Origin: a virus
Strand: one strand, 5' to 3'
IMG/VR virus record: IMGVR_UViG_3300035670_000703
Location: 1-36,180 of that record
DNA: 36,180 nt
The position numbers and the translations under genes are program-made. Every line of letters starts with the position of its first letter. The first letter of the stretch is position 1. Of the stretch, positions 399-36,180 are shown piece by piece. Under the pieces are notes generated by a model. That model was given only the letters and a program-made list of their open reading frames with translations, did not search any database and was not told the origin of the DNA.

Positions 399-2115
399 AT
401 CGCTGATGTCGGCGGTCGTTCGCATCCGCCCCGACCTCGAAGGGTTCCGCAGCGAACTGAAGAAAGGTGTCTCCCAAGCTGGTGACGACGCCCGCAAGGA
501 ACTCGTCGACGACATGGAGCGCGCCGGCCGAGAAGGCGGCCAAGCCGTCGGCGAAGGCATCGCCGAAGGCACCAAAGACGGCACCGACCGTGCGAAACGT
601 GAACTCGACACCCTCGAAGACAAAGCGAAACGCCTGAGCGCTTCCGGGTCGAAACTGATGGCGGCCGGCGGAAAGATGTCGCTCGCTGTGACTACTCCCA
701 TCGTCGGCGGGTTTGCCATGGCAATCAACCAGGCGTCAGACCTCGGGGAAGCGGTCAACGCTTCATCTGTCGTGTTCGGCGACGCCGCCGACGAGATGAA
801 CGCTTTCTCGCAGTCGGCGATCGACAACCTCGGTCTCGCCCGGCAGACGGTCCTGCAGATGGCGACCCCTCTCGGAGCGATGCTCACTGCGCAGGGCGTC
901 GACGTCGCAGAAGCACAGAGGATGACGGAGGATCTGATCACCCGGGGCCGTGACATCAAGTCGCTATTCAACGCTTCGTCAACCGAGGAGGTGTTGCAGG
1001 CGATCTCGGCCGGCCTACGAGGGGAGACCGAGCCGCTCCGCCGCTACGGCGTCCAACTGTCCGAAGCAGCTCTCCAGGCGGAGGCTCTGTCGTCTGGTCT
1101 GATCCAAGTGGAGGGCGACACGACGAAAGTGATGTCGGCACAGCTCGCCGCTCAGAAGGCGGCCCGTACGTACGCCGAAGCAGTTGAGAAGCATGGGGCG
1201 AACTCGTCGAAGGCTCAAGAAGCGCAGATGGCGATGGAGATCGCCAACCAGAAGCTGGCGGCCGCTATCGAGGACAAGTCGATCCCAGCTCTCGACGCCG
1301 AGACAAAGATGCGAGCCGCTTACAACATCATCATGGAGCAGTCGTCGATCGCTGAAGGCGACTACGCGCGGACGAAAGACTCGTACGCCAACCAGGCGGA
1401 ACGTGCCAAAGAGCAGACGAAGGAGATGGCTGCTGAGCTCGGCGAGAATCTGATGCCGACCGTGCAGAAGGTCCTCGGTTTCGTCAGCGATCTCGTCGAC
1501 AAGTTCAACAACCTGTCTGAGGGTCAGCAGAACGCCATCTTGATCGGTCTCGGCTTCGCCGCAGTTGCAGGTCCGATCACGACTGTGATCGGTGCTGTCC
1601 AGTCGCTGATGGGCGTGTTGACCGCTTTGGCAGCCCGATGGGGTCTCGTGTCGACTGCTGCGACTACTGCGGCAACAGCGCAGGGTCGGGCCGCCGCCGC
1701 TGGCGGAGCCGCAGCTGTCGGCGGCGTCGGATTTGGTAGCGCAGCGCTTGCAGGAACGGCAGCGTTCGCCGGCGGCTACCTCCTCGCCAAGGAGACCGGG
1801 TTCGCAGACTGGGCTGGCGAGAAGATTGCCAACTCTTTCCTTGGCAGTGCGATCTCGGCTGTTGTCCCCGGACTCGCCGAAGGTGGAACCACCACGTCAG
1901 CAGGAACCGTGCTGGTCGGGGAGGAAGGACCTGAACTGTTGACCCTTCCTCGAGGCGCGGAGGTTCGACCGCTCGACAAGACCGGCGACACGTACGTCAC
2001 CATGAACGTCAATGTGACCGGGCGTGCGGCCGACGACCCGGCGGCACTCGCACGTGAACTCGACCGCCTCCACCGGCGAGCAACCGCAACGGTTGGCACC
2101 CGGAGGCTCCCGTGA
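388..2115 (+). CDS. Tape measure protein
   Basis: This 575-residue protein sets tail length and helps DNA passage. The first ~100 residues are charged and helical (GVSQAGDDARKE...), followed by a TP901-type tape-measure core with helices rich in Ala, Glu and Lys. Near residues 380-470 there are hydrophobic Ala/Gly-rich stretches that could span a membrane. The C-terminal part carries GLAEGGTTTSAGTVLVGEEG, a motif typical of actinophage tape measures. The start is GTG 388 with GGAGG at 374-378; ATG 406 is an alternative. It directly follows the G-T chaperone and overlaps the distal tail gene by 4 bases. At roughly 1.5 A per residue the tail would be short, near 85-90 nm. Confidence 0.93.
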   Translation: MNRRSLMSAVVRIRPDLEGFRSELKKGVSQAGDDARKELVDDMERAGREGGQAVGEGIAEGTKDGTDRAKRELDTLEDKAKRLSASGSKLMAAGGKMSLAVTTPIVGGFAMAINQASDLGEAVNASSVVFGDAADEMNAFSQSAIDNLGLARQTVLQMATPLGAMLTAQGVDVAEAQRMTEDLITRGRDIKSLFNASSTEEVLQAISAGLRGETEPLRRYGVQLSEAALQAEALSSGLIQVEGDTTKVMSAQLAAQKAARTYAEAVEKHGANSSKAQEAQMAMEIANQKLAAAIEDKSIPALDAETKMRAAYNIIMEQSSIAEGDYARTKDSYANQAERAKEQTKEMAAELGENLMPTVQKVLGFVSDLVDKFNNLSEGQQNAILIGLGFAAVAGPITTVIGAVQSLMGVLTALAARWGLVSTAATTAATAQGRAAAAGGAAAVGGVGFGSAALAGTAAFAGGYLLAKETGFADWAGEKIANSFLGSAISAVVPGLAEGGTTTSAGTVLVGEEGPELLTLPRGAEVRPLDKTGDTYVTMNVNVTGRAADDPAALARELDRLHRRATATVGTRRLP

Positions 2116-5900: not shown

Positions 5901-7288
5901 AAGTGTCCGACGACTCGACATCGTTTGGTTCGGTGCTGTCACTTCCCGGCGGTGTCAACCTCGAAGTCGTCGACACCGACCTCACCGATCAGCAAGCCGT
6001 CGTCCGCATGACGCAAACACCGCCAGGCGCCACCGTCACCCGCTACACGTTCTGGGTACGTGCCCTCGACTCGTCGGGCCTCGCATCGAACCCCGTCAAG
6101 ATCACCGGTGTCATCGGCTCACCGACAACGGGAGTATGGCTCCAGAAGGTCGTCAGAGGGGTTGACGTCGCCACCGTAGAGACACGCACACCGCTCAGGG
6201 CGGTCAAGAGCCTGTCGTTCACCGATTCGTTGGACGGAGCGGGATACGCCGAGATTGAGGTTTCGACCGACGAACTGCTCCGCCGGGCCACCGATCTCGG
6301 CACCTCCGTCACCCAGCTCGTCGACTCGGCCAGCGTCGAAGTGCTGATCGCTATCGGCGGCCAACCCGTGTTCTGCGGCCCGATCACCGAAACAACGTGG
6401 CAGACGACAAGCGAAACAGCGACCATCTCTGCGGCCGGCCTCCTCTCATACTTCGACCAGCGCATCCTGACCGCGGACGCCTCCTACGTCGGAGTCGACA
6501 TGAGTGCCATCGTCGCCGACCTGGTCGCCGATTCGCAGGCACTCGACTACGGGAACCTCGCAATAAGCGATGCAACTTCACCGGCCGGCACGAACGCCAC
6601 CGTCACCTTCGACGCTGGCACCACCATCGGCGACTGTCTCGGCAAGATCGCCGAACGAGTCGGCGCACCCGAAATCTGGATCGACGCCCACCGGGAACTA
6701 CACGCCCAACCGACCCGAGGTATCGACAACCGTTCCCGGGTCCGGATCACGTCCGGCATGGCTGACGTCGCCTCCTGGTCAACCCGCGCCGAAGGAGTTG
6801 TCACCGTCGCACGTGTTGTCGGAGCCGACACGACCGGAGGGAACTACGTCGGAGTGGCAGAGAGCGCCGCCGGTCTCGCCATCTACGGCCGGGTCGAGAA
6901 GACGTATTCGGCTCCGCAGCTTCTGTCGAACGCCGACTGTGAACTGTTGGCCCAGCGGATCGTCGAGGCGTCCGCCACCCAGGCGCAAGCCCTTACTGTC
7001 GATCTGATCGTCACACCGGAACGACCGTTCGGCCTGACCGACCTCGGCGTCGGTGATGTCGTCACCGTCGACCTGCGAGACCGGCAGCTCGGCCAGATCT
7101 TGGGTCCGTACCGGATCATCAACCGGCAGGCGACGCTCATCGAAGAGTCATCCGGGTCGTATCGGGTGACCCTCGACTTGGAACCGGCCCGCTACGTCGA
7201 CGGGAAACTCGTCGGGTCACGATCCCGCCACAACCCGGCGCTCCTGACGGAGCTGTCTCGACTGGCGCTCACGCAGCGTCAGAGCTAG
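2906..7288 (+). CDS. Large minor tail protein: N-terminal adhesin domains fused to Gp37-like hub
   Basis: This is the largest gene, 1460 residues. Residues 1-~560 are beta-rich and suggest a propeller or host-binding module (repeated Gly, Thr and Ser with Trp). Residues ~565-1070 hold tandem cadherin/Ig-like units; segments such as VPEDTTSIGTFTFTDPDK (~713) and DTDEDTPVEYELTWTDPD (~845) recur, with Asp-rich loops that could bind calcium. From about 1077 (VWLQKVVRG) to the end the protein resembles the siphovirus ReqiPepy6 Gp37-like family, a baseplate-hub protein. Codon use changes across the middle: from about 4600 to 6100 third positions are strikingly C-rich, suggesting imported adhesin domains. 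The ATG overlaps the upstream stop; a second ATG follows at 2909. Probable role: tail tip, receptor binding and hub in one chain. Confidence 0.8.
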   Translation: MMSTTITSGTMPTVQVGEQSVGYFVTDYVGQSPVFLEFSTNGTTWEDVNPSPTFLGDAPQGVWAEPDVGNYAVVAVAITPEVEGSATIFMRARVGSGTPGPTYSATITSYVSIAGGFTQSLEDWTGSSWQVSSNVLISQRFTDQVVIAFGGSARTKFRVGAQEILPPAGVTSGNVVVGIDLDGVVQWSAWINGGAIASIDQAPDGRIYAMLSLTGQTRSFYNQDGTFAFTDVFSVNGNQLLVAELYATGNWTGNRCRVTFGGTQTIGNAVLRASANRVLIAGPLSSTATGVTVAGVALSSVSRSATTTWAAGLTPQLAHLWGYMWARGAFEGADIGSDGVSYVLSQQATNFPSVGGVVSPTQGGVARIALNGAVNGHDGWPPSSVTSARGIYIAVDESHYYLSARTTSSSHSAGATWTDGSVTTPAATVAGTSIALWKRTLAGITVDATLVSNLAGTTSRPEPIAICGSLKLLVPVSANDWSNRGTKLFEVDPATLDTIQSTYAYWTPISADQNMFQQGFTVDSLGNAITILSPGPIATTSTTIVDADDTTTQVLSPRNRWVTTLSEGVWGQLVGGELTFGPPTPPESDDWPTSLVEGDILIANVTGYDPENSGGTAILEVLALDTGTWVPNPTALTIPGKGVLSVTKDDPTIDTGAIVTVTPTNDWFGTLRVWTRWRIVDPDYTLRTSASSTFITVYDNDPEPPAAPTGEMPTVPEDTTSIGTFTFTDPDKVGTYTWQLSPQTSKPANWDTLYPDQPQPDWHTTTGTTITVLDGDTPVGTATISSQNNTNRTGSISFTPNANWNGTTKFDTRVSNGLWSAWTTVFVTVDPVGDAPSTLAGNIPDTDEDTPVEYELTWTDPDVDPADGAAGYTIELAEVSSTGPGSYAPIAWTDSGEIEVDKAVIRVVAMAEDDLAVTMRTEPSANEYGAYRYAARVREDSTPPVYGPTRILEGTIVSVPDQPGMVQGRMPAARWGQTVEGLFTTYDPDTGETYAFQIEVSDDSTSFGSVLSLPGGVNLEVVDTDLTDQQAVVRMTQTPPGATVTRYTFWVRALDSSGLASNPVKITGVIGSPTTGVWLQKVVRGVDVATVETRTPLRAVKSLSFTDSLDGAGYAEIEVSTDELLRRATDLGTSVTQLVDSASVEVLIAIGGQPVFCGPITETTWQTTSETATISAAGLLSYFDQRILTADASYVGVDMSAIVADLVADSQALDYGNLAISDATSPAGTNATVTFDAGTTIGDCLGKIAERVGAPEIWIDAHRELHAQPTRGIDNRSRVRITSGMADVASWSTRAEGVVTVARVVGADTTGGNYVGVAESAAGLAIYGRVEKTYSAPQLLSNADCELLAQRIVEASATQAQALTVDLIVTPERPFGLTDLGVGDVVTVDLRDRQLGQILGPYRIINRQATLIEESSGSYRVTLDLEPARYVDGKLVGSRSRHNPALLTELSRLALTQRQS

Positions 7289-7293
7289 TCAGC

Positions 7294-7299
7294 AACCGT
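7294..7299 (+). promoter_or_regulatory. Weak variant of the start-associated element (AACCGT)
   Basis: GCAACCGT lies 10 bases before ATG 7310. The spacing is longer than the usual 7 and the fourth base differs, so this is a doubtful member of the phage element set. Confidence 0.3.
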
Positions 7300-7309
7300 T
7301 GTCGTTGTT

Positions 7310-7639
7310 ATGAGTGCAGCGGCATGGGCTTTCCTTGGAGCGTTAGTCACCGGCCCGCTATCTGCGCTGATCGCGTCGCTGCTCACTCGCAAGAAGTTGG
7401 GCGCGGAAACCGAACAGGTCATCGCCGCCGGCGCCCATGCGGTGGCCCAGGGCGCCGAGACTCTCGTCGGTTCGATGTCCGATGCGATCGAACAGCTGCG
7501 AAGCCAGTTGGAGGAAACCCGAAACGAGTTGGCGCAGACCCGTACGGAGCTCGCACGGACCCGCGCCGAAGCGGACGCTCTCGCCCTTGAAGTTCACAAG
7601 CTTCGCCTCGAACTCGCACGCCGCAGCAACGGTGCCTGA
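7310..7639 (+). CDS. Small membrane-anchored coiled-coil protein
   Basis: This 109-residue protein begins with a hydrophobic helix (AAAWAFLGALVTGPLSALIA, residues ~3-24), then a basic patch (LLTRKK). Residues ~50-105 form a long heptad-like helix with repeated units (LEETRNELAQTRTELARTRAE), a clear coiled coil. The topology suggests an N-terminal membrane anchor. It lies just after the tail genes and immediately before the holin, so a lysis-accessory or second holin-like role is possible, but I do not recognise a named family. The end of the gene contains the promoter-like element of the next gene. Confidence 0.7.
   Translation: MSAAAWAFLGALVTGPLSALIASLLTRKKLGAETEQVIAAGAHAVAQGAETLVGSMSDAIEQLRSQLEETRNELAQTRTELARTRAEADALALEVHKLRLELARRSNGA
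7628..7633 (+). promoter_or_regulatory. Start-associated -10-like element AACGGT (holin gene)
   Basis: GCAACGGT lies 7 bases before ATG 7641, inside the end of the preceding gene. Seven bases separate the hexamer from the start codon, as at most other copies. Confidence 0.6.
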
Positions 7640-7829: not shown

Positions 7830-7852
7830 CTTGCCTCTGCGAGAGCCGCACT

Positions 7853-7858
7853 GACGGT
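7853..7858 (+). promoter_or_regulatory. Start-associated -10-like element GACGGT
   Basis: CTGACGGT lies 7 bases before ATG 7866 and is preceded by a short gene-free gap. The same CTGACGGTT sequence occurs before the endolysin start at 19403. Confidence 0.65.
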
Positions 7859-11727: not shown

Positions 11728-11733
11728 ACTGTT
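11728..11733 (-). promoter_or_regulatory. Start-associated -10-like element AACAGT (xis-int)
   Basis: On the minus strand AACAGT, then TGCTGTC (7 bases), then ATG 11720. It has the same spacing as the plus-strand copies. Confidence 0.6.
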
Positions 11734-11822: not shown

Positions 11823-11879
11823 GATCGCCAGTGAGGCGACTCCTAGCCACCTGAGCAGGGGTTATCAGTGAAAGACCTA

Positions 11880-11925
11880 CGGTTTCCTAAACCGCAGGTC
11901 GCAGGTTCGATCCCTGCCGGGGGCG
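11880..11925 (+). other. attP: attP core: 3' half of tRNA-Arg(CCT)
   Basis: This segment matches the end of a tRNA gene. It has the anticodon stem CGGT/ACCG with 7-base loop TTCCTAA (11884-11890, anticodon CCT), a variable region, the T arm GCAGG-TTCGATC-CCTGC (11901-11917), the 3' acceptor strand CGGGGGC (11918-11924) and discriminator G. There is no 5' half, and CCA is not fully encoded. Temperate phages often carry such a fragment so that integration into the host tRNA restores it. The exact core length needs the host attB. The rest of the 308-base gap (11721-12028) holds only the flanking arm repeats and the xis promoter. Confidence 0.85.
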
Positions 11926-12022
11926 CCCAGCATAGAGGCACTTTTTCGACGAAATCCCTGGTCAAACTGACGGCCCGGGCGTCCCGCAAAGTCCCAGCGT
12001 GTACAAGCGTGTCCGACGATTC

Positions 12023-12041
12023 GCGGGGCTATAGCGGGGGA
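12023..12041. other. Right arm-type repeat near attP
   Basis: GCGGGGCTATAGCGGGGGA is the partner of 11803-11822. It runs into the 3' end of the sigma factor gene (12029). Confidence 0.5.
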
Positions 12042-12847
12042 AACTGGGCGCTCAGAGCCTCCCGGAGGCGCTCGGCCAGATCACGCTCAACCCGCACCAC
12101 CTGCGCCACGCTGACATGACAGCGCTCTGCGATCTCTCGATGACTCACACGATCACTCGACGTCGCCATCAAACGACTGAAAACGATGCGACGTTCCAAC
12201 GGTGTTGATGCGATCTCTGCAATCGCCTCACGCACCTCACGGGTCAACTCGTCAAGCGACGCGCCCTCGACGACGACATCCTCCGGCGATCTCCCGGCCG
12301 GCGTCTCGACCTCCCACAGTGTGTGTCCGTCCTCATCGACATGAGCATCCCCCGACACCACAGTCGGCTGCTCCACGATCCGGCGGATCCGATCAACCGA
12401 CACCGGCTTCCCATGAGCCACAGACACCGCCTCGGCGATCTCCTCCCACGAGACGTCACCACCGATCTGCTCCCGCTCCCGAATGAACCGCTGGGCGTCC
12501 GCACGCATACGCCGGTTCTCCCGGCCGACCCGCAGCGGCGCCTCCCTGGCCGAGATGTCCCATCGCACGCCTTGGAGGTACGGCTTCAGATAGGTGACGA
12601 ACTTGGCGACCTTCCCGCTCTCGCCGAGACGCAGCCGGTTGTACGTCGGGACTCGCTGCATGGCGACGATCACGAGCTCGGCGACGTACTCCTCCCGCAC
12701 ATGATCCGGCCAGTACGGAAACGCCGTCTGGGCGGCGTAGTAGCGGAGGAACGGCAGATGGGTCTCAACGATCCGCTGGGCGAGCGCCGATCGGGTCGCC
12801 TCGTCGCCGGCCGTCTCGTATGCGACCCAGAGGGCACCGTCGTCCAT
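12029..12847 (-). CDS. Sigma-70 family RNA polymerase sigma factor
   Basis: This 272-residue protein has sigma-factor layout. Residues ~20-105 resemble region 2 (IVETHLPFLRYYAAQTAFPYW, then EEYVAELVIVAMQRV and VAKFVTYLKPYLQGVRWDI). Residues ~115-170 resemble region 3 (VSWEEIAEAVSVAHGKPVSVDRI as a helix-turn-helix). Residues ~205-268 resemble region 4 (STPLERRIVFSRLM, SHREIAERCHVSVAQVVRVERDL). The divergent region 2 suggests an alternative promoter specificity. Its own start carries GACGGT 8 bases before ATG 12847 and no ribosome binding site, so it may regulate itself. It lies downstream of the RepA-like ATPase gene. It probably directs host polymerase to phage promoters; that role is inferred. 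A DNA-binding replication regulator is a less likely alternative. Confidence 0.8.
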   Translation of the reverse strand: MDDGALWVAYETAGDEATRSALAQRIVETHLPFLRYYAAQTAFPYWPDHVREEYVAELVIVAMQRVPTYNRLRLGESGKVAKFVTYLKPYLQGVRWDISAREAPLRVGRENRRMRADAQRFIREREQIGGDVSWEEIAEAVSVAHGKPVSVDRIRRIVEQPTVVSGDAHVDEDGHTLWEVETPAGRSPEDVVVEGASLDELTREVREAIAEIASTPLERRIVFSRLMATSSDRVSHREIAERCHVSVAQVVRVERDLAERLREALSAQFPPL

Positions 12848-12855
12848 GCCTGGGG

Positions 12856-12861
12856 ACCGTC
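12856..12861 (-). promoter_or_regulatory. Start-associated -10-like element GACGGT (sigma factor gene)
   Basis: On the minus strand GACGGT is followed by CCCCAGGC (8 bases) and ATG 12847. The sigma gene thus carries the element it may itself recognise. Confidence 0.6.
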
Positions 12862-12886
12862 ACGGCGACAGCCCCCAGGGCAAGAC

Positions 12887-13984
12887 TCAGAACGGGCTGT
12901 CGTCGAGCTCGACGTACGGCTTCACGAGCTTGACGAGCTTCGCCCCACGAGCACCATCCGTGATGGTGACGAAACCCTCCTCGGCGAGACGGTCAATAGC
13001 CGCCGCCACGAACGCATACTTGCGACCGACGCCCTTGACGACCTTCGCCTTCGACAGTGCCTCGTCTGCCGACTCAAGGAACTCTGAGACTGCCTTCATG
13101 TACCACGTCGGACGGAACTGTCCCGTCGGCGTCGTCGTCTCCGCCGGCTGCGAAACCTGGAACCGAACCTGGCCGTCGTCAACGTTCGTCATGAGAACCT
13201 CGCAGGCGACGCTGCCATGCTTACGCCAACCGAACCGGTCCTTCCGGGTCAGCAGCTTGAACTGGCCGTCCGAACACTTCGACGGTGCAGCGATCACGTC
13301 AAGGAAGTACGCCGACCCATTGATGGCGGCACGCTTACGCTGCGACCCGGAAGCGAACTCCGTGTTCCGAGAGTTCTCCCGGGCCTTCACCGTGTGGTCG
13401 AGGAGTATGACAGCGGCGTCCAGCTGCGCCAAGAACCTGGCGGTACCACGGAACCACTTGGCGACCTCCTCATCAGCGTTAGGAGACACACCATCGACAG
13501 CGAGCGCCTCACCGGTCGAGTCGAGAACAGCGACCGCAACGTCACGACCTTCGAGCGCCTCAGCGAGCGCATGCTCGCCCTGCTGCGACCACTTCTCCGA
13601 CGGCTGGATGTAGATGAGATGGTCAAGGATTGCCTCACGGGCGACACCCATCTGCTCGAGGCGGGCAACCTGCGACGCCGGATGGTCCTCGTAGTCGACC
13701 AGGATGACGTCCTCGCCGGCCAGGATGTGCTGCGCCATCACATGGAGAGCGAACCAGGTCTTGCCGCCGCCGCTGTCGCCGAAGATTGCGTTGATGCGGC
13801 CTCGGTAGAAGAGACAGATTTCGGCGCCGGTAACGCAGCCGACGTCAGGCATCGGAGGTTCGTAACCGTCAGCGAGAACGACCGACAGATCGACCGGCCG
13901 CCAAGAGTCACCGGGACGGCTGCGCTTCTCCACTTTGTCGACCGGAGGTGCCAGGTCGAAAGAATCAAACGTTGTCTCCGACAT
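12887..13984 (-). CDS. RepA-like hexameric ATPase (AAA_25), replication helicase or loader
   Basis: This 365-residue RecA-fold ATPase has Walker A GDSGGGKT (~69-76), Walker B VILVDYED (~93-100) and a second acidic strand VAVAVLDSTGEA (~148-159), then VILLDHTVKARE as a sensor-like element. This matches RSF1010 RepA-type helicases (AAA_25). A C-terminal winged-helix-like tail (~305-360; LSKAKVVKGVGRKYAFVAAAIDRLAEEGFVTI) is probably DNA-binding. It starts at ATG 13984 (GTG 13987 is possible) and overlaps the upstream winged-helix gene, so it belongs to one minus-strand early operon with it and probably the sigma gene. No separate primase or DNA polymerase is seen, so replication likely borrows host enzymes. 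Confidence 0.82.
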   Translation of the reverse strand: MSETTFDSFDLAPPVDKVEKRSRPGDSWRPVDLSVVLADGYEPPMPDVGCVTGAEICLFYRGRINAIFGDSGGGKTWFALHVMAQHILAGEDVILVDYEDHPASQVARLEQMGVAREAILDHLIYIQPSEKWSQQGEHALAEALEGRDVAVAVLDSTGEALAVDGVSPNADEEVAKWFRGTARFLAQLDAAVILLDHTVKARENSRNTEFASGSQRKRAAINGSAYFLDVIAAPSKCSDGQFKLLTRKDRFGWRKHGSVACEVLMTNVDDGQVRFQVSQPAETTTPTGQFRPTWYMKAVSEFLESADEALSKAKVVKGVGRKYAFVAAAIDRLAEEGFVTITDGARGAKLVKLVKPYVELDDSPF

Positions 13985-14229: not shown

Positions 14230-14352
14230 TCTCTGTTCCTTTCTCTCGTCACCGGCCTTGTGGCCGGATCGGAGAGGGACCGTGAGCGCTATCGGAAAAG
14301 GCGCAAGGAGGTTGCTTGCGAAAGATCTCGGAGCCGCAACTGTCCTGGTTCG

Positions 14353-14397
14353 AGAGCCGCCCCGGGTTTTCTCCTCCTTTCTCCCTGGGGCGGCTCT
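14353..14397 (+). terminator. Hairpin, possible leader terminator
   Basis: AGAGCCGCCCC (14353-14363) pairs perfectly with GGGGCGGCTCT (14387-14397) around a 23-base CT-rich loop. No T-tract follows, so terminator activity is uncertain. Confidence 0.45.
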
Positions 14398-14479
14398 TCG
14401 CTATTCACCCACCTCCTCCCACCTCTTCCCGCACCTCTTCCCGGAGGCGGTCGTGTCACCCACCAACTGAGAGCCTCAA

Positions 14480-14519
14480 CCCCCTCCCACCTCCCTCTAT
14501 AGGAGGAGGTGGAGGGGGG
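14480..14519 (+). promoter_or_regulatory. GC-rich hairpin with buried AGGAGG
   Basis: CCCCCTCCCACCTCC (14480-14494) can pair with GGAGGAGGTGGAGGGGGG (14502-14519) with small slips, around CTCTATA. It sits about 150 bases before the Bet start and could act as an attenuator or protein-binding site. Confidence 0.4.
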
Positions 14520-14617
14520 AGGCGCTCAGTGGGGACACGGGGCTGCCGGAAGACGTCGGCGAGATCACCCGATCTCGGAAGAGGTCACCACCTACTTGCG
14601 CAATCGGAAAGAGCACC

Positions 14618-14623
14618 GACAGT
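14618..14623 (+). promoter_or_regulatory. Candidate phage-type promoter GACAGT upstream of bet
   Basis: GACAGT followed by 7 bases predicts a transcript start near 14631, giving a 42-base leader to the Shine-Dalgarno start at 14673. Confidence 0.4.
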
Positions 14624-14672
14624 CAGTCACGTGGCCGGGAGCCGGTCACAGGACAGAGAAAGGAGAACCCGA

Positions 14673-15584
14673 ATGTCCGAAATCATGAAGGCCAGCAGCG
14701 AGCTGGCGATCCAGCCAGGCCAGACCGCATTCACTCCAAAGCAGGTCGCCGCATTGCGCCAGATGGGTCTTGACAAGGCGAACGAAGCCGACCTCGCAGT
14801 GTTCTTTCACCACTGCGTGCGAACTGGGCTCGACCCGGTTGCTGGTCAGATTCGAATGATCGGCCGATGGGACGGTCGTGCGCAGCGAGAGAAGTACACG
14901 ATCCAGACCGGCATCGACGGCTATCGCCTAATCGCAGAGCGCACCGGTGCGTACGCCGGCAGCGACGAGTCGTGGGTCGAGTCCGACAAAGGCCATCCCC
15001 TGTCGGCCACGGTCACCGTTCACAAAGTCGTCGCCGGTCAGATCAGGCCGTTCACTGCGACGGCTCACTGGGCGGAGTACTGCCAGACGACGAAGGATGG
15101 CAAGCTGATGGGGCTTTGGGCGAAGATGCCGCACCGCATGCTCGCCAAGTGTGCAGAAGCGCTTGCGCTTCGTAAGGCGTTCCCTCAGGACCTCGCCGGT
15201 GTCTACACGGACGAGGAGATGAGTCAGGCGGACAGCACGCCGCGCGTTTCTGTTTCGCACGGCGCTATCGACGTCGAGACTGTCGATGAGGTCACTGAAC
15301 GTGCAGAGACCGCCAAGAAGGTTTCGCTGCTCGACGAGTCGCTCCTGGAAGGTGTCACCGCAAGCCAGGTGAAGCGCATTCACGTTCTTCGCAGTCAGGC
15401 TGGCCTCGACGATGAGAGGTACCGGGCCGGTCTTGAGAAGGTCGCCGGCGTGCGCAGCTCGAAGGATCTCACTCGTGCGCAAGCCGACGAGGTCATTGCC
15501 GCACTGGAGACTGCTGTCGCTCGACGCCAGAAGGAGACCCCCGAGTATTGGGAGGCAGCGCCGGTCGAGGAGATGGCGTCATGA
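14673..15584 (+). CDS. bet: Phage recombination protein Bet (RecT-family single-strand annealase)
   Basis: This 303-residue protein belongs to the Bet/RecT annealase family, which anneals single strands during phage recombination and replication. The core spans about residues 18-185 and includes LAVFFHHCVRTGLDPVAGQI (~41-60), YTIQTGIDGYRLIAERTGAY (~74-93) and MPHRMLAKCAEALALRKAFP (~152-171), all family signatures. The C-terminal ~90 residues are variable and helical. The start ATG has AAAGGAG upstream. It is the first gene of a rightward early operon and overlaps the next gene. No Exo-type nuclease neighbour is present. Confidence 0.93.
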   Translation: MSEIMKASSELAIQPGQTAFTPKQVAALRQMGLDKANEADLAVFFHHCVRTGLDPVAGQIRMIGRWDGRAQREKYTIQTGIDGYRLIAERTGAYAGSDESWVESDKGHPLSATVTVHKVVAGQIRPFTATAHWAEYCQTTKDGKLMGLWAKMPHRMLAKCAEALALRKAFPQDLAGVYTDEEMSQADSTPRVSVSHGAIDVETVDEVTERAETAKKVSLLDESLLEGVTASQVKRIHVLRSQAGLDDERYRAGLEKVAGVRSSKDLTRAQADEVIAALETAVARRQKETPEYWEAAPVEEMAS

Positions 15585-16513: not shown

Positions 16514-16519
16514 TATTCT
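16514..16519 (+). promoter_or_regulatory. Host-type -10 box TATTCT, leaderless
   Basis: TATTCT, CAGGGC, then ATG 16526. TAnnnT with 6-base spacing and no ribosome binding site. Confidence 0.6.
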
Positions 16520-17358: not shown

Positions 17359-17411
17359 CGCCCGGATGCGCCCATTTGCACACACCCATTCAGCGACGAC
17401 GGTTGACAACC

Positions 17412-18275: not shown

Positions 18276-18355
18276 GTGTCCAGCCCCTTGCGCCGGGCTG
18301 TCAAGCCTTGACTGTCTGAGGTACCCCACACCGGCAACCGCCGAACCACCCCAAA

Positions 18356-18972: not shown

Positions 18973-19375
18973 CCGCCTCGAACATCTCCTCGACGAGGCG
19001 CAACCCTGCTCGACAGTGTTCCTCATCTCGCAGTCGCTTCTCTCGATACTCGCCGCCGAACACGACGTCCCGAGCATCAGAACGCTTCTCCAGATAGGGC
19101 CACGCACCCTGGTCAACATGGATGCCAAGACGGCACACGTCCAACAGTTCGACACCGTCTACTGGCAGTGCCACTACTGGCGTTGCGACTGCCCGTCATG
19201 CGAACGAGGGAACTACTGCTACTGCCCGTCAACGAACCAGCCGACCGTCGGCCTACACAAACTGATCATCCCTCCGCCGAACCTGACCGTCGTCCAAGCA
19301 GAGGTGTACACGGTGCTCCGCCAAGACGACATGGATCCCGCCGACGCTGCCGAAGCCGCTCAACTTCTTGCCTAA
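18932..19375 (+). CDS. Cys-rich unknown protein, 147 residues
   Basis: It starts at GTG 18932 with AAAGGAG five bases upstream, inside the previous gene. The N-terminal half is helical. The middle has a dense Cys cluster (CHYWRCDCPSCERGNYCYC, ~80-98) that probably binds zinc. The C-terminus is helical and acidic. Family unknown; zinc-binding proteins of this size in phages are often DNA- or RNA-binding. Confidence 0.6.
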   Translation: MTSPQPRHSKVWTDRLEHLLDEAQPCSTVFLISQSLLSILAAEHDVPSIRTLLQIGPRTLVNMDAKTAHVQQFDTVYWQCHYWRCDCPSCERGNYCYCPSTNQPTVGLHKLIIPPPNLTVVQAEVYTVLRQDDMDPADAAEAAQLLA

Positions 19376-19395
19376 CAGCGCCAGGCGCTGACGGT
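19372..19395 (+). promoter_or_regulatory. Promoter of endolysin: CTAACAGCG-N9-GACGGT
   Basis: CTAACAGCG (19372-19380), 9 bases, then GACGGT (19390-19395), then 7 bases to ATG 19403. The identical arrangement occurs at 35764-35787 before gene G, so the upstream block may be a -35 or activator element for late genes. Confidence 0.6.
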
Positions 19396-21990: not shown

Positions 21991-22061
21991 GTTACGGGTC
22001 CTGCAGGGCTTTGTGAGACTCAGGAAAACAGTCTGACCTTCCACCGGCTACCACGGTCAGC

Positions 22062-22067
22062 AACGGT
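22062..22067 (+). promoter_or_regulatory. Start-associated -10-like element AACGGT (terS)
   Basis: GCAACGGT is 7 bases before ATG 22075, at the head of the packaging operon. The preceding gap (21979-22074) may hold the packaging site, but no cos site was recognised. Confidence 0.65.
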
Positions 22068-25164: not shown

Positions 25165-25186
25165 TGGCATCCCTAGCCATCGCCGC

Positions 25187-25192
25187 AACAGT
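25187..25192 (+). promoter_or_regulatory. Start-associated -10-like element AACAGT (portal operon)
   Basis: GCAACAGT is 7 bases before GTG 25200, directly after a terminator, so a new transcript probably starts here. Confidence 0.65.
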
Positions 25193-28326: not shown

Positions 28327-28583
28327 AAAAACTGATCGCAGTAGTGGTCGCCGGGTTTGCGATCGTGAACGGGTTCCGGATCTTGTTCACTGAGGACTGC
28401 AACACGGTGTCGTTCGATGCGGTTGGTGGCCGGCGTGTGTCAGCGGTGATGTGTTTCGCTGACGATTCGGGTGTGGTGCCGGGCTGGCTCGTTGGGGTCG
28501 GGTTGATCTTGTTCGGCCTGATCGTGTTGGCGGTTGGTTTCATGTCTCGTGGCCCGGGTAGTCGCCGCCGGCCGATGTATTAG
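28323..28583 (+). CDS. Two-helix membrane protein (moron)
   Basis: This 86-residue protein starts at GTG 28323 overlapping the previous stop. It has a hydrophobic N-terminal helix (LIAVVVAGFAIVNGFRILF), a short external loop with two Cys (DCNTV...AVMCF) and a second helix (WLVGVGLILFGLIVLAVGFM) followed by a basic tail. Probably partner of the PH-like zinc-ribbon protein. Function unknown. Confidence 0.62.
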   Translation: MKKLIAVVVAGFAIVNGFRILFTEDCNTVSFDAVGGRRVSAVMCFADDSGVVPGWLVGVGLILFGLIVLAVGFMSRGPGSRRRPMY

Positions 28584-28615: not shown

Positions 28616-29995
28616 GTGAACCGGCTCTATTACGGCGACAACCTCAACGTCCTCAAGAAGTACATCAAGGACGAGTCGGTGGACCTCGTCTACCTCGACC
28701 CGCCGTTCAACTCGGACCGCAACTACAACATCCTCTTCAAGCAAAAGGACGCCCCATCAGCCGGTGCTGACAACCCCCAGATCCTGGCATTCACCGACAC
28801 GTGGACATGGGGCAACGATGACGCCCAACTACTGAAGCAACTGCAGGAGACAGCGGCACCCCGAGTTTCGGACACCCTCACAGCTCTCTACAAGATTCTC
28901 GGCCAGTCAGACATGATGAGCTACATCGTGATGATGGCGCCCCGCCTAGTGGAACTCAGGCGAGTCCTCAAGCCGACAGGAAGCATCTACCTGCACTGTG
29001 ACATGTCGGCAGCGCACTACCTCAAGGTGCTCATGGATTCGATCTTCGGGCCCGAAAACTTCCTCAACAACGTGGTCTGGCTTTACGGGTTGGGCGGAAG
29101 CTCCAACCGGTACTGGCCACGAAAGCACGATGACCTTCTCTGGTACTCCCGAAAGCCGGACGGACAGTACTTCGAGGCGGATCGAGTTCCAGCGACGTCG
29201 AATCGACTGAAGGGTCAAGACAAGAAGGCTCCTGACTATTGGGACATCCCGACCATCAACAACATGTCGAAAGAGCGACTTGGCTATCCGACTCAGAAGC
29301 CTCTCGCTCTCCTAGAGAGAGTTGTTCGATCCTCATGTCCCGAAGGCGGCGTAGTTCTGGACCCGTTCTGTGGGTGTGGCACAGCAGTTGCAGCCGCCCA
29401 GGCGTTGGGTCGTCAGTGGATCGGTATCGACATCACGTTCCTGGCAGTGAACCTGATCCGGGAGCGAATGAGGAACATGTTTGGAAGCGAGTGTGAGTTT
29501 GAGCTCCATGGTGTGCCGGCAGACGTTGCCTCCGCACGTCAGCTCTTTCAGACGAATGCCTTTGACTTTGAGCGTTGGGCCGTCACCTTGATCGGCGGTC
29601 ATCCAAACGACAAGCAGGTGGGTGACAAGGGGATCGACGGGAAGGTTCGCTTCTGGGACACGCCAACGGAACTTGGCGACGTCATCGTGTCCGTGAAGGG
29701 GGGAGAAAAGCTGAATCCCTCCATGATCCGAGACCTCGTGGGGACCGTCCAACGTGTGGGTGCTCCCATGGGGTTGTTCATCTGTTTGACGGAGCCGACC
29801 AAGGGGATGATCCAGGAGGCCCAGTCGGCTGGACTGTACGAGCACTACTCGGGCAACTCCTTCCCGAAGATCCAGATCCTCACTATCGCCGATGCGCTGA
29901 AGGGCGTGCGTCCTCAGATGCCGACGCCTGAATCACCGTACAAAGCCGCTGAGCAACACATTGAGGCACCGCCGGAGCTCGAGCTGGGCATCTAG
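28616..29995 (+). CDS. Beta-class DNA methyltransferase with C-terminal nuclease-like domain
   Basis: This 459-residue protein has methyltransferase motif IV LDPPF (~27-31) before motif I DPFCGCGT (~249-256), the order of beta-class N6-adenine/N4-cytosine enzymes. Motif GYPTQKPLALLERV lies at ~224. From ~310 a second domain (FERWAVTLIGG, VGDKGIDGKVRF, VIVSVKGG, IRDLVGTVQRVGAPMGLFICL) resembles restriction-endonuclease-like/Mrr-type domains found fused to such methylases. The S-V-K in place of (E/Q)xK is common in that group, so cutting activity is uncertain. GTG 28616 is preferred to TTG 28607 since TACTTT lies 7 bases upstream. It sits between portal and protease and may protect phage DNA or act as an orphan modification gene. 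Confidence 0.85.
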   Translation: MNRLYYGDNLNVLKKYIKDESVDLVYLDPPFNSDRNYNILFKQKDAPSAGADNPQILAFTDTWTWGNDDAQLLKQLQETAAPRVSDTLTALYKILGQSDMMSYIVMMAPRLVELRRVLKPTGSIYLHCDMSAAHYLKVLMDSIFGPENFLNNVVWLYGLGGSSNRYWPRKHDDLLWYSRKPDGQYFEADRVPATSNRLKGQDKKAPDYWDIPTINNMSKERLGYPTQKPLALLERVVRSSCPEGGVVLDPFCGCGTAVAAAQALGRQWIGIDITFLAVNLIRERMRNMFGSECEFELHGVPADVASARQLFQTNAFDFERWAVTLIGGHPNDKQVGDKGIDGKVRFWDTPTELGDVIVSVKGGEKLNPSMIRDLVGTVQRVGAPMGLFICLTEPTKGMIQEAQSAGLYEHYSGNSFPKIQILTIADALKGVRPQMPTPESPYKAAEQHIEAPPELELGI

Positions 29996-30716: not shown

Positions 30717-30729
30717 AGACGCCGGCAGC

Positions 30730-30735
30730 AACGGT
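30730..30735 (+). promoter_or_regulatory. Start-associated -10-like element AACGGT (protease)
   Basis: GCAACGGT, CCCGGGC (7 bases), ATG 30743. Confidence 0.65.
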
Positions 30736-32749: not shown

Positions 32750-32768
32750 TTCTCTATGTTTGGGCAGC

Positions 32769-32774
32769 AACGGT
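32769..32774 (+). promoter_or_regulatory. Start-associated -10-like element AACGGT (connector operon)
   Basis: GCAACGGT, CTGCGGC (7 bases), ATG 32782, placed just after a terminator. The 18-base block ending in ATG is identical to that before gene G at 35795. Confidence 0.68.
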
Positions 32775-34699: not shown

Positions 34700-34775
34700 T
34701 GGTGCTCCTTTTTGCACTGGTTGGGTTGTCACTTGACTGTGACGGCTCGAACCGTGGGCGCATAAGAACGGGCGG

Positions 34776-34788
34776 CAAGGGTTGACAC
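34776..34788 (-). promoter_or_regulatory. Shared 13-mer GTGTCAACCCTTG (second copy)
   Basis: This is the exact repeat of 10098-10110, again upstream of a minus-strand gene (34699). TATGCG lies 17 bases after TGTCAA on the minus strand and may be a -10. It could be bound by the same repressor or read by the same polymerase form. Confidence 0.45.
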
Positions 34789-34809
34789 GGCCCTTTTTCG
34801 GCAGGCAGC

Positions 34810-34815
34810 AACAGT
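34810..34815 (+). promoter_or_regulatory. Phage-type promoter AACAGT with short leader
   Basis: GCAACAGT, 7 bases, predicted start near 34823, then a 30-base leader with CAGGAG before ATG 34853. The element here drives a leadered gene, as at 14618. Confidence 0.5.
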
Positions 34816-35768: not shown

Positions 35769-35787
35769 AGCGTCTAGCCGCAACGGT
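35764..35787 (+). promoter_or_regulatory. Promoter of gene G: CTAACAGCG-N9-AACGGT
   Basis: CTAACAGCG (35764-35772), 9 bases, AACGGT (35782-35787), 7 bases, ATG 35795. Same layout as at the endolysin (19372-19395). Confidence 0.65.
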
Positions 35788-35794
35788 CTGCGGC

Positions 35795-36175
35795 ATGACC
35801 GCAGAGAAACTCGTCACCGTCTACGAAATCGGCTGGGAACACGAACTCGTTGATGACGACGACGGAGTCCACATCAGCTACCTCGTCGACGAAGACGGCC
35901 ACCGGATCCGCCGCAGGTATCGCATCCCTGTCCGGCTGACCGCCCGGCAAGTGTTCGCCAGGTCGAAGCAGGTGTCCCCGGAGACGCTGCAAGGGTTGGC
36001 GTCCGGTGACCTCGAAGCGCTCATGGAGCTTCTCGACGCCATGGTCGGCGACCGGATCATCGAAACGGTCGGTACCGATCCGACCGTCCCGACCGACGAG
36101 TTCCTTCGTTTCCTCAACTGGCTGGTCGACGAACTGAAACTCGCCGACGTGTTGGGTGGCGGTCCGGGAAACTGA
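35795..36175 (+). CDS. Tail assembly chaperone G
   Basis: This 126-residue acidic protein starts MTAEKLVTVYEIGWEHELVD and ends LADVLGGGPGN just after the slippery site. It includes LTARQVFARSKQVSPETLQG and FLRFLNWLVDELKL helices. In siphophages the short form G and a frameshifted G-T form assist tail-tube assembly around the tape measure. GGGAAAC at 36166-36172 directs -1 slippage; the T part is 81-398 at the other end of the linear window. It starts without a Shine-Dalgarno sequence, 7 bases after AACGGT. Confidence 0.88.
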   Translation: MTAEKLVTVYEIGWEHELVDDDDGVHISYLVDEDGHRIRRRYRIPVRLTARQVFARSKQVSPETLQGLASGDLEALMELLDAMVGDRIIETVGTDPTVPTDEFLRFLNWLVDELKLADVLGGGPGN

Positions 36176-36180
36176 TCCGG
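36086..36180. repeat. Terminal direct repeat, right copy
   Basis: This is the second copy of the 95-base repeat at 1-95. Joining the copies restores gene G, its frameshift site and the downstream T frame without a break. Confidence 0.93.

Follow-up and report, generated by a model that had tools for sequence, protein, structure and literature searches.

A phage sigma factor gene and its surroundings

We analysed the whole 36,180-bp stretch of the virus record IMGVR_UViG_3300035670_000703 (hereafter the window). Its bases 1-95 are identical to bases 36086-36180, which indicates that the window is probably a complete genome, circular or circularly permuted, and the gene order across its ends agrees with that of a syntenic sister phage, IMGVR_UViG_3300034166_001837 (G1). 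As a sequence-only reading of this DNA had proposed, the minus strand encodes a 272-residue protein with the parts of a sigma-70 factor, and the GACGGT expected 8 bases before its ATG was found in place:

12029..12847, minus strand: gene of the sigma-70-family factor, 272 aa (open reading frame, profile matches, AF2 model, alignment)
12856..12883, minus strand: class I promoter of the sigma gene, TTGC (12883-12880), 18 bp, GACGGT (12861-12856), 8 bp to the ATG
12887..13984, minus strand: AAA/RecA-like ATPase gene directly upstream of the sigma gene, with an orthologue in G1
14279..14306, minus strand: class I promoter TTGC-N18-CACGGT of the leftward early operon (81-aa gene, ATPase, sigma)
11873-11930: 3' half of a tRNA-Arg(CCT) between xis/int and the sigma gene, probably the attP core

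The G1 orthologue of the ATPase, 65% identical, occupies the same place, the G1 sigma gene is preceded by the same class I layout, and the operon promoter has its counterpart at 28477 of G1. A complete tRNA-Arg(CCT) lies between the ATPase and sigma genes of G1 (L002:9849-9923); ARAGORN reported no whole tRNA at 11873-11930 of the window.

Two relatives of the window sigma are present in IMG/VR. That of G1 is 63% identical, and the two genomes share 27 orthologue pairs with 26-83% identity. The other, 39% identical, is carried by IMGVR_UViG_3300009504_000531 (L008), whose terminase and portal are 59% and 49% identical to those of the window. The comparison of this sigma family thus covers three genomes, L008 being a 14.6-kb fragment, with gene starts from a simple in-house caller and homology comparison. 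IMG/VR was also scanned with the terminase, portal and capsid and with a peptide pattern of region 2.3, which retrieved, beyond G1 and L008, only unrelated or remote phages, and no homologue of the sigma was found in GenBank phages (tblastn) or in 84,980 bacterial and archaeal species genomes. Judged by its sequence, the sigma is a new divergent lineage of a known kind of protein, far from any host family.

Sequence and predicted fold of the sigma factor

The TIGR02937 profile (sigma-70 family) matches residues 23-265 of the protein (E=6.5e-7; 29.1 bits, curated cut-off 42.9), and PHROG 351, "RNA polymerase sigma factor", matches at 3.6e-6. A Pfam search, the check that the sequence-only reading had put forward, matched r3 (0.027, a weak match at residues 130-190) and r4_2 (0.014), both with scores below the curated cut-offs. 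The AF2 model is of modest confidence (mean pLDDT 64.8, pTM 0.32, and below 50 pLDDT in region 2.4). When it was compared with the PDB by Foldseek, all 44 matches at E<=0.001 were sigma factors or models of them, including SigB, sigma32, sigmaS and sigmaA, with alignments that span roughly the whole chain and with regions 2, 3 and 4 in order. Taken by itself, region 4 aligns with SigW at 1.9 A across 64 residues, and the best named viral structural matches are annotated phage sigma factors. Region 2 comprises residues ~30-112, region 3 ~113-160 and region 4 ~199-268, with a linker at 161-198. The open reading frame, TIGR02937 and Foldseek thus bear out the three-region description, and the protein is very likely a working sigma factor.

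Two narrower classifications were rejected. Membership of the ECF factors (group 4) is contradicted by the helical block at 109-159 between regions 2 and 4, by the weak r3 match and by the whole-chain structural matches to SigB, sigma32 and sigmaS, and a sporulation-like (SigF/SigG) factor by scores of 20.8 bits for SigBFG (cut-off 234) and 13.3 for spore_sigF (cut-off 321).

Conservation within the family is uneven. Between the window and G1, 33 of 37 residues are identical in regions 2.3-3.0, making the -10-reading part the most conserved part of the protein, and 28 of 74 (38%) in region 4, where the recognition-helix residues vary despite the constant -35 TTGC described below. In the alignment, the aromatic residues of the A-11 pocket are retained, and G93 and W96 align with what we take to be Q437 and T440 of sigma70 (numbering of the E. 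coli RpoD sequence), the readers of T-12. The L008 sigma differs in region 2.4, with KMVRYKVEGSRGP where the window has QGVRWDISAREAP. The region-2.3 pattern FVTYxKPY[LIM] also retrieved a phage protein (L045/L047/L053) that is unrelated and clearly sigma-like, and the shared FVTYxKPYL supports our register of region 2.3. That protein is an independent 193-aa phage sigma from unrelated IMG/VR contigs, its open reading frame holding regions 2 and 3 only.

A recurrent -10 element

The hexamer AACGGT occurs 31 times in the window, against 17+-4 in shuffled sequences. In a scan made without gene calls, ACGGT ranks first among the 1024 5-mers at 7 or 8 bp before any ATG, both in the window (p=3.7e-6) and in G1 (p=1.8e-4; joint p=3e-9). 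An unbiased dyad scan of 86 upstream regions from both phages has TTGC-N19-ACGG at its top (9 versus 0.1, p=4e-15), the best among 1.57 million dyads; in the genome-wide scan of all regions, codon-driven CG dyads dominate and it is about the tenth distinct dyad. The class I pattern was first noticed by eye and the unbiased dyad scan came afterwards; as several tests were framed after looking, the unbiased 5-mer and dyad scans and the control contigs carry most weight. A Shine-Dalgarno variant is excluded, since AAAGGAG is a separate enriched motif, as is a plain host -10, the host-type TANNNT peaking separately at N6. A chance GC-rich hexamer is excluded by the 5-mer scan, the upstream dyad scan and the N18 spacing peak given below. 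The proposal of a recurrent non-host -10 element in this phage is therefore well supported, by the two scans and by the distinct TANNNT set.

Class I promoters

Class I promoters have the form TTGC-N18-NACNGT. With all spacings from N8 to N31 between TTGC and [ACG]ACNGT counted, there are 82 pairs; N18 accounts for 23 of them, compared with ~2.6 for other spacings (p=2e-13). Each of the three phages shows the N18 peak (10, 8 and 5 pairs), which is lost when TTGC is replaced by TTGA, TTGG or TTGT, and is absent from 303 kb of control phage contigs. Besides the two at the sigma locus, the window contains:

7831..7858, plus strand: TTGC-N18-GACGGT, N7, ATG of gene 7866 (284 aa)
14316..14343, plus strand: TTGC-N18-AACTGT, facing the RecT-side genes
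14596..14623, plus strand: TTGC-N18-GACAGT, upstream of recT (14673)
17376..17403, plus strand: TTGC-N18-GACGGT, N8, ATG of the replication-initiator-like gene 17412
18288..18315, plus strand: TTGC-N18-GACTGT
19368..19395, plus strand: TTGC-N18-GACGGT, N7, ATG of the endolysin gene 19403 (VanY+LysM)
34751..34778, minus strand: TTGC-N18-CACGGT, before the minus-strand gene 34699

Most class I sites of the window belong to its early half, with the ATPase-sigma operon, the recT side, the replication-like gene and the endolysin gene, and early operons have class I at their head in all three phages. Several have been retained ahead of orthologues shared by the window and G1 despite diverged flanks, and the class I -10s of L008 remain NACNGT. 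The RecT-like annealing protein (14316-15584) has a C-terminal stretch that matches GemA (Pfam 1e-8).

Some early class I spacers share a further sequence, TTTC[CG]GATAGCGC, at 14284-14303 (-) of the window and at 28477 (+) and 28178 (-) of G1 (L004/L005); the early promoters of L008 instead have TTGCGTCAC in common, together with a TTTCGCGCC spacer. TTTC[CG]GATAGCGC is possibly a repressor operator; no gene for a repressor was identified.

Class II promoters

Class II promoters are defined by CAGCAACNGT (logo C[AC]GCAA[CA]NGT) and have no detectable -35. CAGCAA, AGCAAC and CAACGG are the most enriched upstream hexamers after those of the Shine-Dalgarno sequence. The window sites, listed with a variant -10 before xis, are:

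2085..2093, plus strand: CGCAACGGT, before the tail (Dit-like) gene 2112, with a Shine-Dalgarno leader
7291..7299, plus strand: AGCAACCGT, before 7310
7625..7633, plus strand: AGCAACGGT, N7, ATG 7641
22059..22067, plus strand: AGCAACGGT, N7, ATG 22075 (gene before the terminase large subunit)
25184..25192, plus strand: CGCAACAGT, N7, GTG 25200 (gene before the portal)
30727..30735, plus strand: AGCAACGGT, N7, ATG 30743 (head maturation protease)
32766..32774, plus strand: AGCAACGGT, N7, ATG 32782 (gene after the major capsid)
34807..34815, plus strand: AGCAACAGT with a Shine-Dalgarno leader, before the tail tube gene 34853
35779..35787, plus strand: CGCAACGGT, N7, ATG 35795
11728..11733, minus strand: variant -10 AACAGT, N7, ATG of xis (11720); AACTGT in G1

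Class II sites of the window precede structural genes, and nine promoter pairs are kept before orthologues in the window and G1 though their flanks have diverged. The two classes divide by position: seven of nine class I sites and none of nine class II sites fall in the early region of the window (p=0.002), with a similar split in L008. The class II -10s of L008 are AAAAGT (3), AACAGT (2) and AAAGGT (1). L008 also has divergent pairs of class I (-) and class II (+) promoters at 6563/6574 and 8059/8081, with both types in one intergenic region. The motifs of neither class are enriched in the 303 kb of other phage contigs.

Most promoters of both classes are followed 7-8 nt on by ATG or GTG without a Shine-Dalgarno sequence, and a few have leaders of at least ~18 nt with one. 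A start codon at this distance from the -10, with no Shine-Dalgarno sequence, is the geometry of leaderless transcripts (PMC3160421), and the class II genes are probably leaderless.

The sequence-only reading had placed the element on all int-xis, head, tail, holin and endolysin genes. This holds in part: xis has the variant form, the endolysin and sigma genes have GACGGT together with the -35 TTGC, and the head protease, small-terminase candidate, tail and holin-candidate genes have the form AGCAAC[GCA]GT, but int and the major capsid gene have no element of their own.

Host-type promoters in the same genome

A third set of promoters resembles those of a bacterial host:

16514..16519, plus strand: host-type TATTCT-N6-ATG (16526), one of the set
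27565, 28616 and 35402, plus strand, and 21978 and 9691, minus strand: other host-type TANNNT-N6/7-start sites

Before ATG, TANNNT occurs five times at N6 and 0-1 times at other distances. Host-type promoters mostly stand before genes that are absent from G1, including a DNA methyltransferase (28616-29995): of the genes behind phage-type promoters 13 of 15 are shared with G1, compared with one of seven behind host-type promoters (p=0.002). The latter genes are likely to be expressed in the lysogen. For actinobacterial leaderless genes, TANNNT has been reported as the -10 (PMC3160421, PMC3898074). Because TANNNT-N6 coexists with NACNGT in the window and matches this reported -10, NACNGT is apparently not simply the host's usual -10.

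Discussion

Which sigma factor reads which promoter? A second -10 grammar in the window calls for a reader of its own, and among the products of the phage is a sigma factor. The best overall explanation, and a probable one, is that the divergent sigma joins the host core and directs polymerase to the phage NACNGT promoters. From the sequences compared here, reading of the NACNGT -10 by the phage sigma is the best inference and most likely correct at least in part, class II being its most secure part. We consider it likely that the phage sigma reads class II. It would bind host core RNA polymerase and send it to NACNGT promoters; class II (CAGC-AACNGT, no -35, start codon at ~+1) would then be the late promoter, with regions 2.4 and 3.0 of the phage sigma reading an extended -10. 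The phage elements lack T at -12 and keep A-11 and T-7, and the loss of T-12 would fit the replacement of Q437/T440 by G93/W96. Likewise, the altered region 2.4 of L008 appears to go with the shift of its class II -10s to mostly AAAAGT, a single contrast among three genomes.

Class I is less clear-cut. As it heads early operons, which must be active before any phage sigma is made, the first round must be host-driven. Class I keeps TTG, A-11 and T-7, so that host holoenzyme may read it with at least low efficiency, and the phage sigma perhaps later; poor conservation of region 4 next to a constant TTGC leaves room for a host sigma here. Given that the sigma promoter itself is class I, that class I heads early operons and that the region 4 helix is unconserved, a host sigma may start a cascade in which class I is read by the host, sigma is made and the late class II genes are turned on. 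That class I, including the promoter of the sigma gene, is read by the phage sigma as well is a real possibility that falls just short of even. Autoregulation, which the sequence-only reading had suggested, is unproven: the element stands before the sigma gene and is retained in G1, but has the early class I form that a host sigma may read. The simple switch from host to phage promoters suggested with it is not established, as the sigma gene shares class I with early operons and the late genes use class II.

We only tentatively advance the fullest form of this explanation, in which one phage sigma would run the entire lytic cycle through two architectures that share NACNGT, its region 2.4 and the late -10 co-evolving. 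The early and regulatory genes and the sigma gene itself would depend on a -35 (TTGC-N18), and the late leaderless genes on a CAGC extended -10. Such an arrangement, if true, would amount to a self-reinforcing sigma switch unlike both the host grammar and known phage cascades. A narrower form of the best explanation divides the readers, a host sigma taking class I and the phage sigma class II only, without autoregulation. It agrees with the class I heads of early operons in three phages, with a constant TTGC although region 4 is just 38% identical between the sister phages, and with L008, where the class I -10s stay NACNGT while class II moves to mostly AAAAGT. Yet both classes share an odd NACNGT unlike the TANNNT of the window, which with two readers would be a coincidence, and we regard this division as somewhat doubtful.

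A host sigma might instead read both classes, the phage sigma acting elsewhere, for instance on host genes in the manner of the sporulation-type phage sigmas. Some phage sigmas do act on host regulons, and the phage may be able to do without them (PMC9429907); the host itself might have a sigma with a NACNGT grammar. However, it would be unusual for the entire lytic programme to depend on an alternative host sigma, host-type TANNNT promoters are present in the same genome, the motifs are unenriched in 303 kb of other phage contigs, and in three of three phages the motif set occurs together with a sigma homologue. We therefore judge this explanation unlikely. It is very unlikely that the elements are operators of a phage activator or repressor and not core promoter elements: the extra sequences given above, which some early class I spacers share within the window and G1 and others within L008, would suit operators, but the fixed 7-8 bp to start codons without Shine-Dalgarno sequences, the 18-bp dyad spacing and the -10/-35 geometry are those of core promoters. 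Least probable is that the sigma homologue has decayed or been repurposed and has no promoter function: despite TIGR and Pfam scores below curated cut-offs, the open reading frame is intact in three phages (63% and 39% identity) and window-G1 conservation is strongest exactly at regions 2.3-3.0.

Phage sigmas are usually annotated without any idea of their targets. The orphan family described here comes with a nearly complete predicted regulon and with two promoter classes defined at single-base resolution; its novelty lies in the sigma lineage, the two-architecture promoter set with a -10 that lacks T-12, and the probably leaderless late genes. The regulon, three diverged genomes and an internal control, the host-type TANNNT promoters on accessory genes, make the pairing of sigma and promoters directly testable. 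The family is a natural test of how changes in region 2.4 shift -10 specificity, and sigma and promoters together could yield an orthogonal pair for high-GC, leaderless-translating bacteria.

How does this phage compare with known systems? SPO1 gp28 and T4 gp55 are phage sigmas that redirect host core to middle or late promoters, as proposed for the window sigma, and T4 late promoters, like class II, have no -35. SPO1 and T4 differ from the window phage in being lytic and large and in their promoter sequences, and no sequence relation was found between the window sigma and gp28 or gp55. PhiEco32 and 7-11 are not known to be temperate. As in the window, they encode a distant sigma-70 relative, their phage-specific promoters were recognised from genome repeats, and their structural genes are on phage late promoters with other genes read by the host (PMC4331800). 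Of the systems compared, they offer the best precedent for a phage sigma that is distant and has late promoters of its own. The elements of 7-11 are different, with a core of TGATGT (PMC4331800), and the window differs from both phages in its probably leaderless late promoters and in having a second, TTGC-N18 class, to which the promoter of the sigma gene belongs. Xpf of the PBSX prophage of Bacillus subtilis is a sigma-type positive control factor in a prophage, but belongs to group IV with regions 2 and 4 only, to which the window sigma adds region 3 (PMC10141391). A full sigma factor in a 36-kb temperate phage is less uncommon than had been supposed, since 13.4% of 4,350 phage genomes carry at least one sigma factor, with temperate phages among the carriers (PMC9429907). 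The sporulation-like sigmas of WBeta, SPO1 and Eldridge are also phage-encoded, some in temperate phages, but resemble host SigF/SigG, some acting on host sporulation genes (PMC9429907), whereas the window sigma is far from any host family. The SigF-like protein of Eldridge is among the structural matches of the window sigma.
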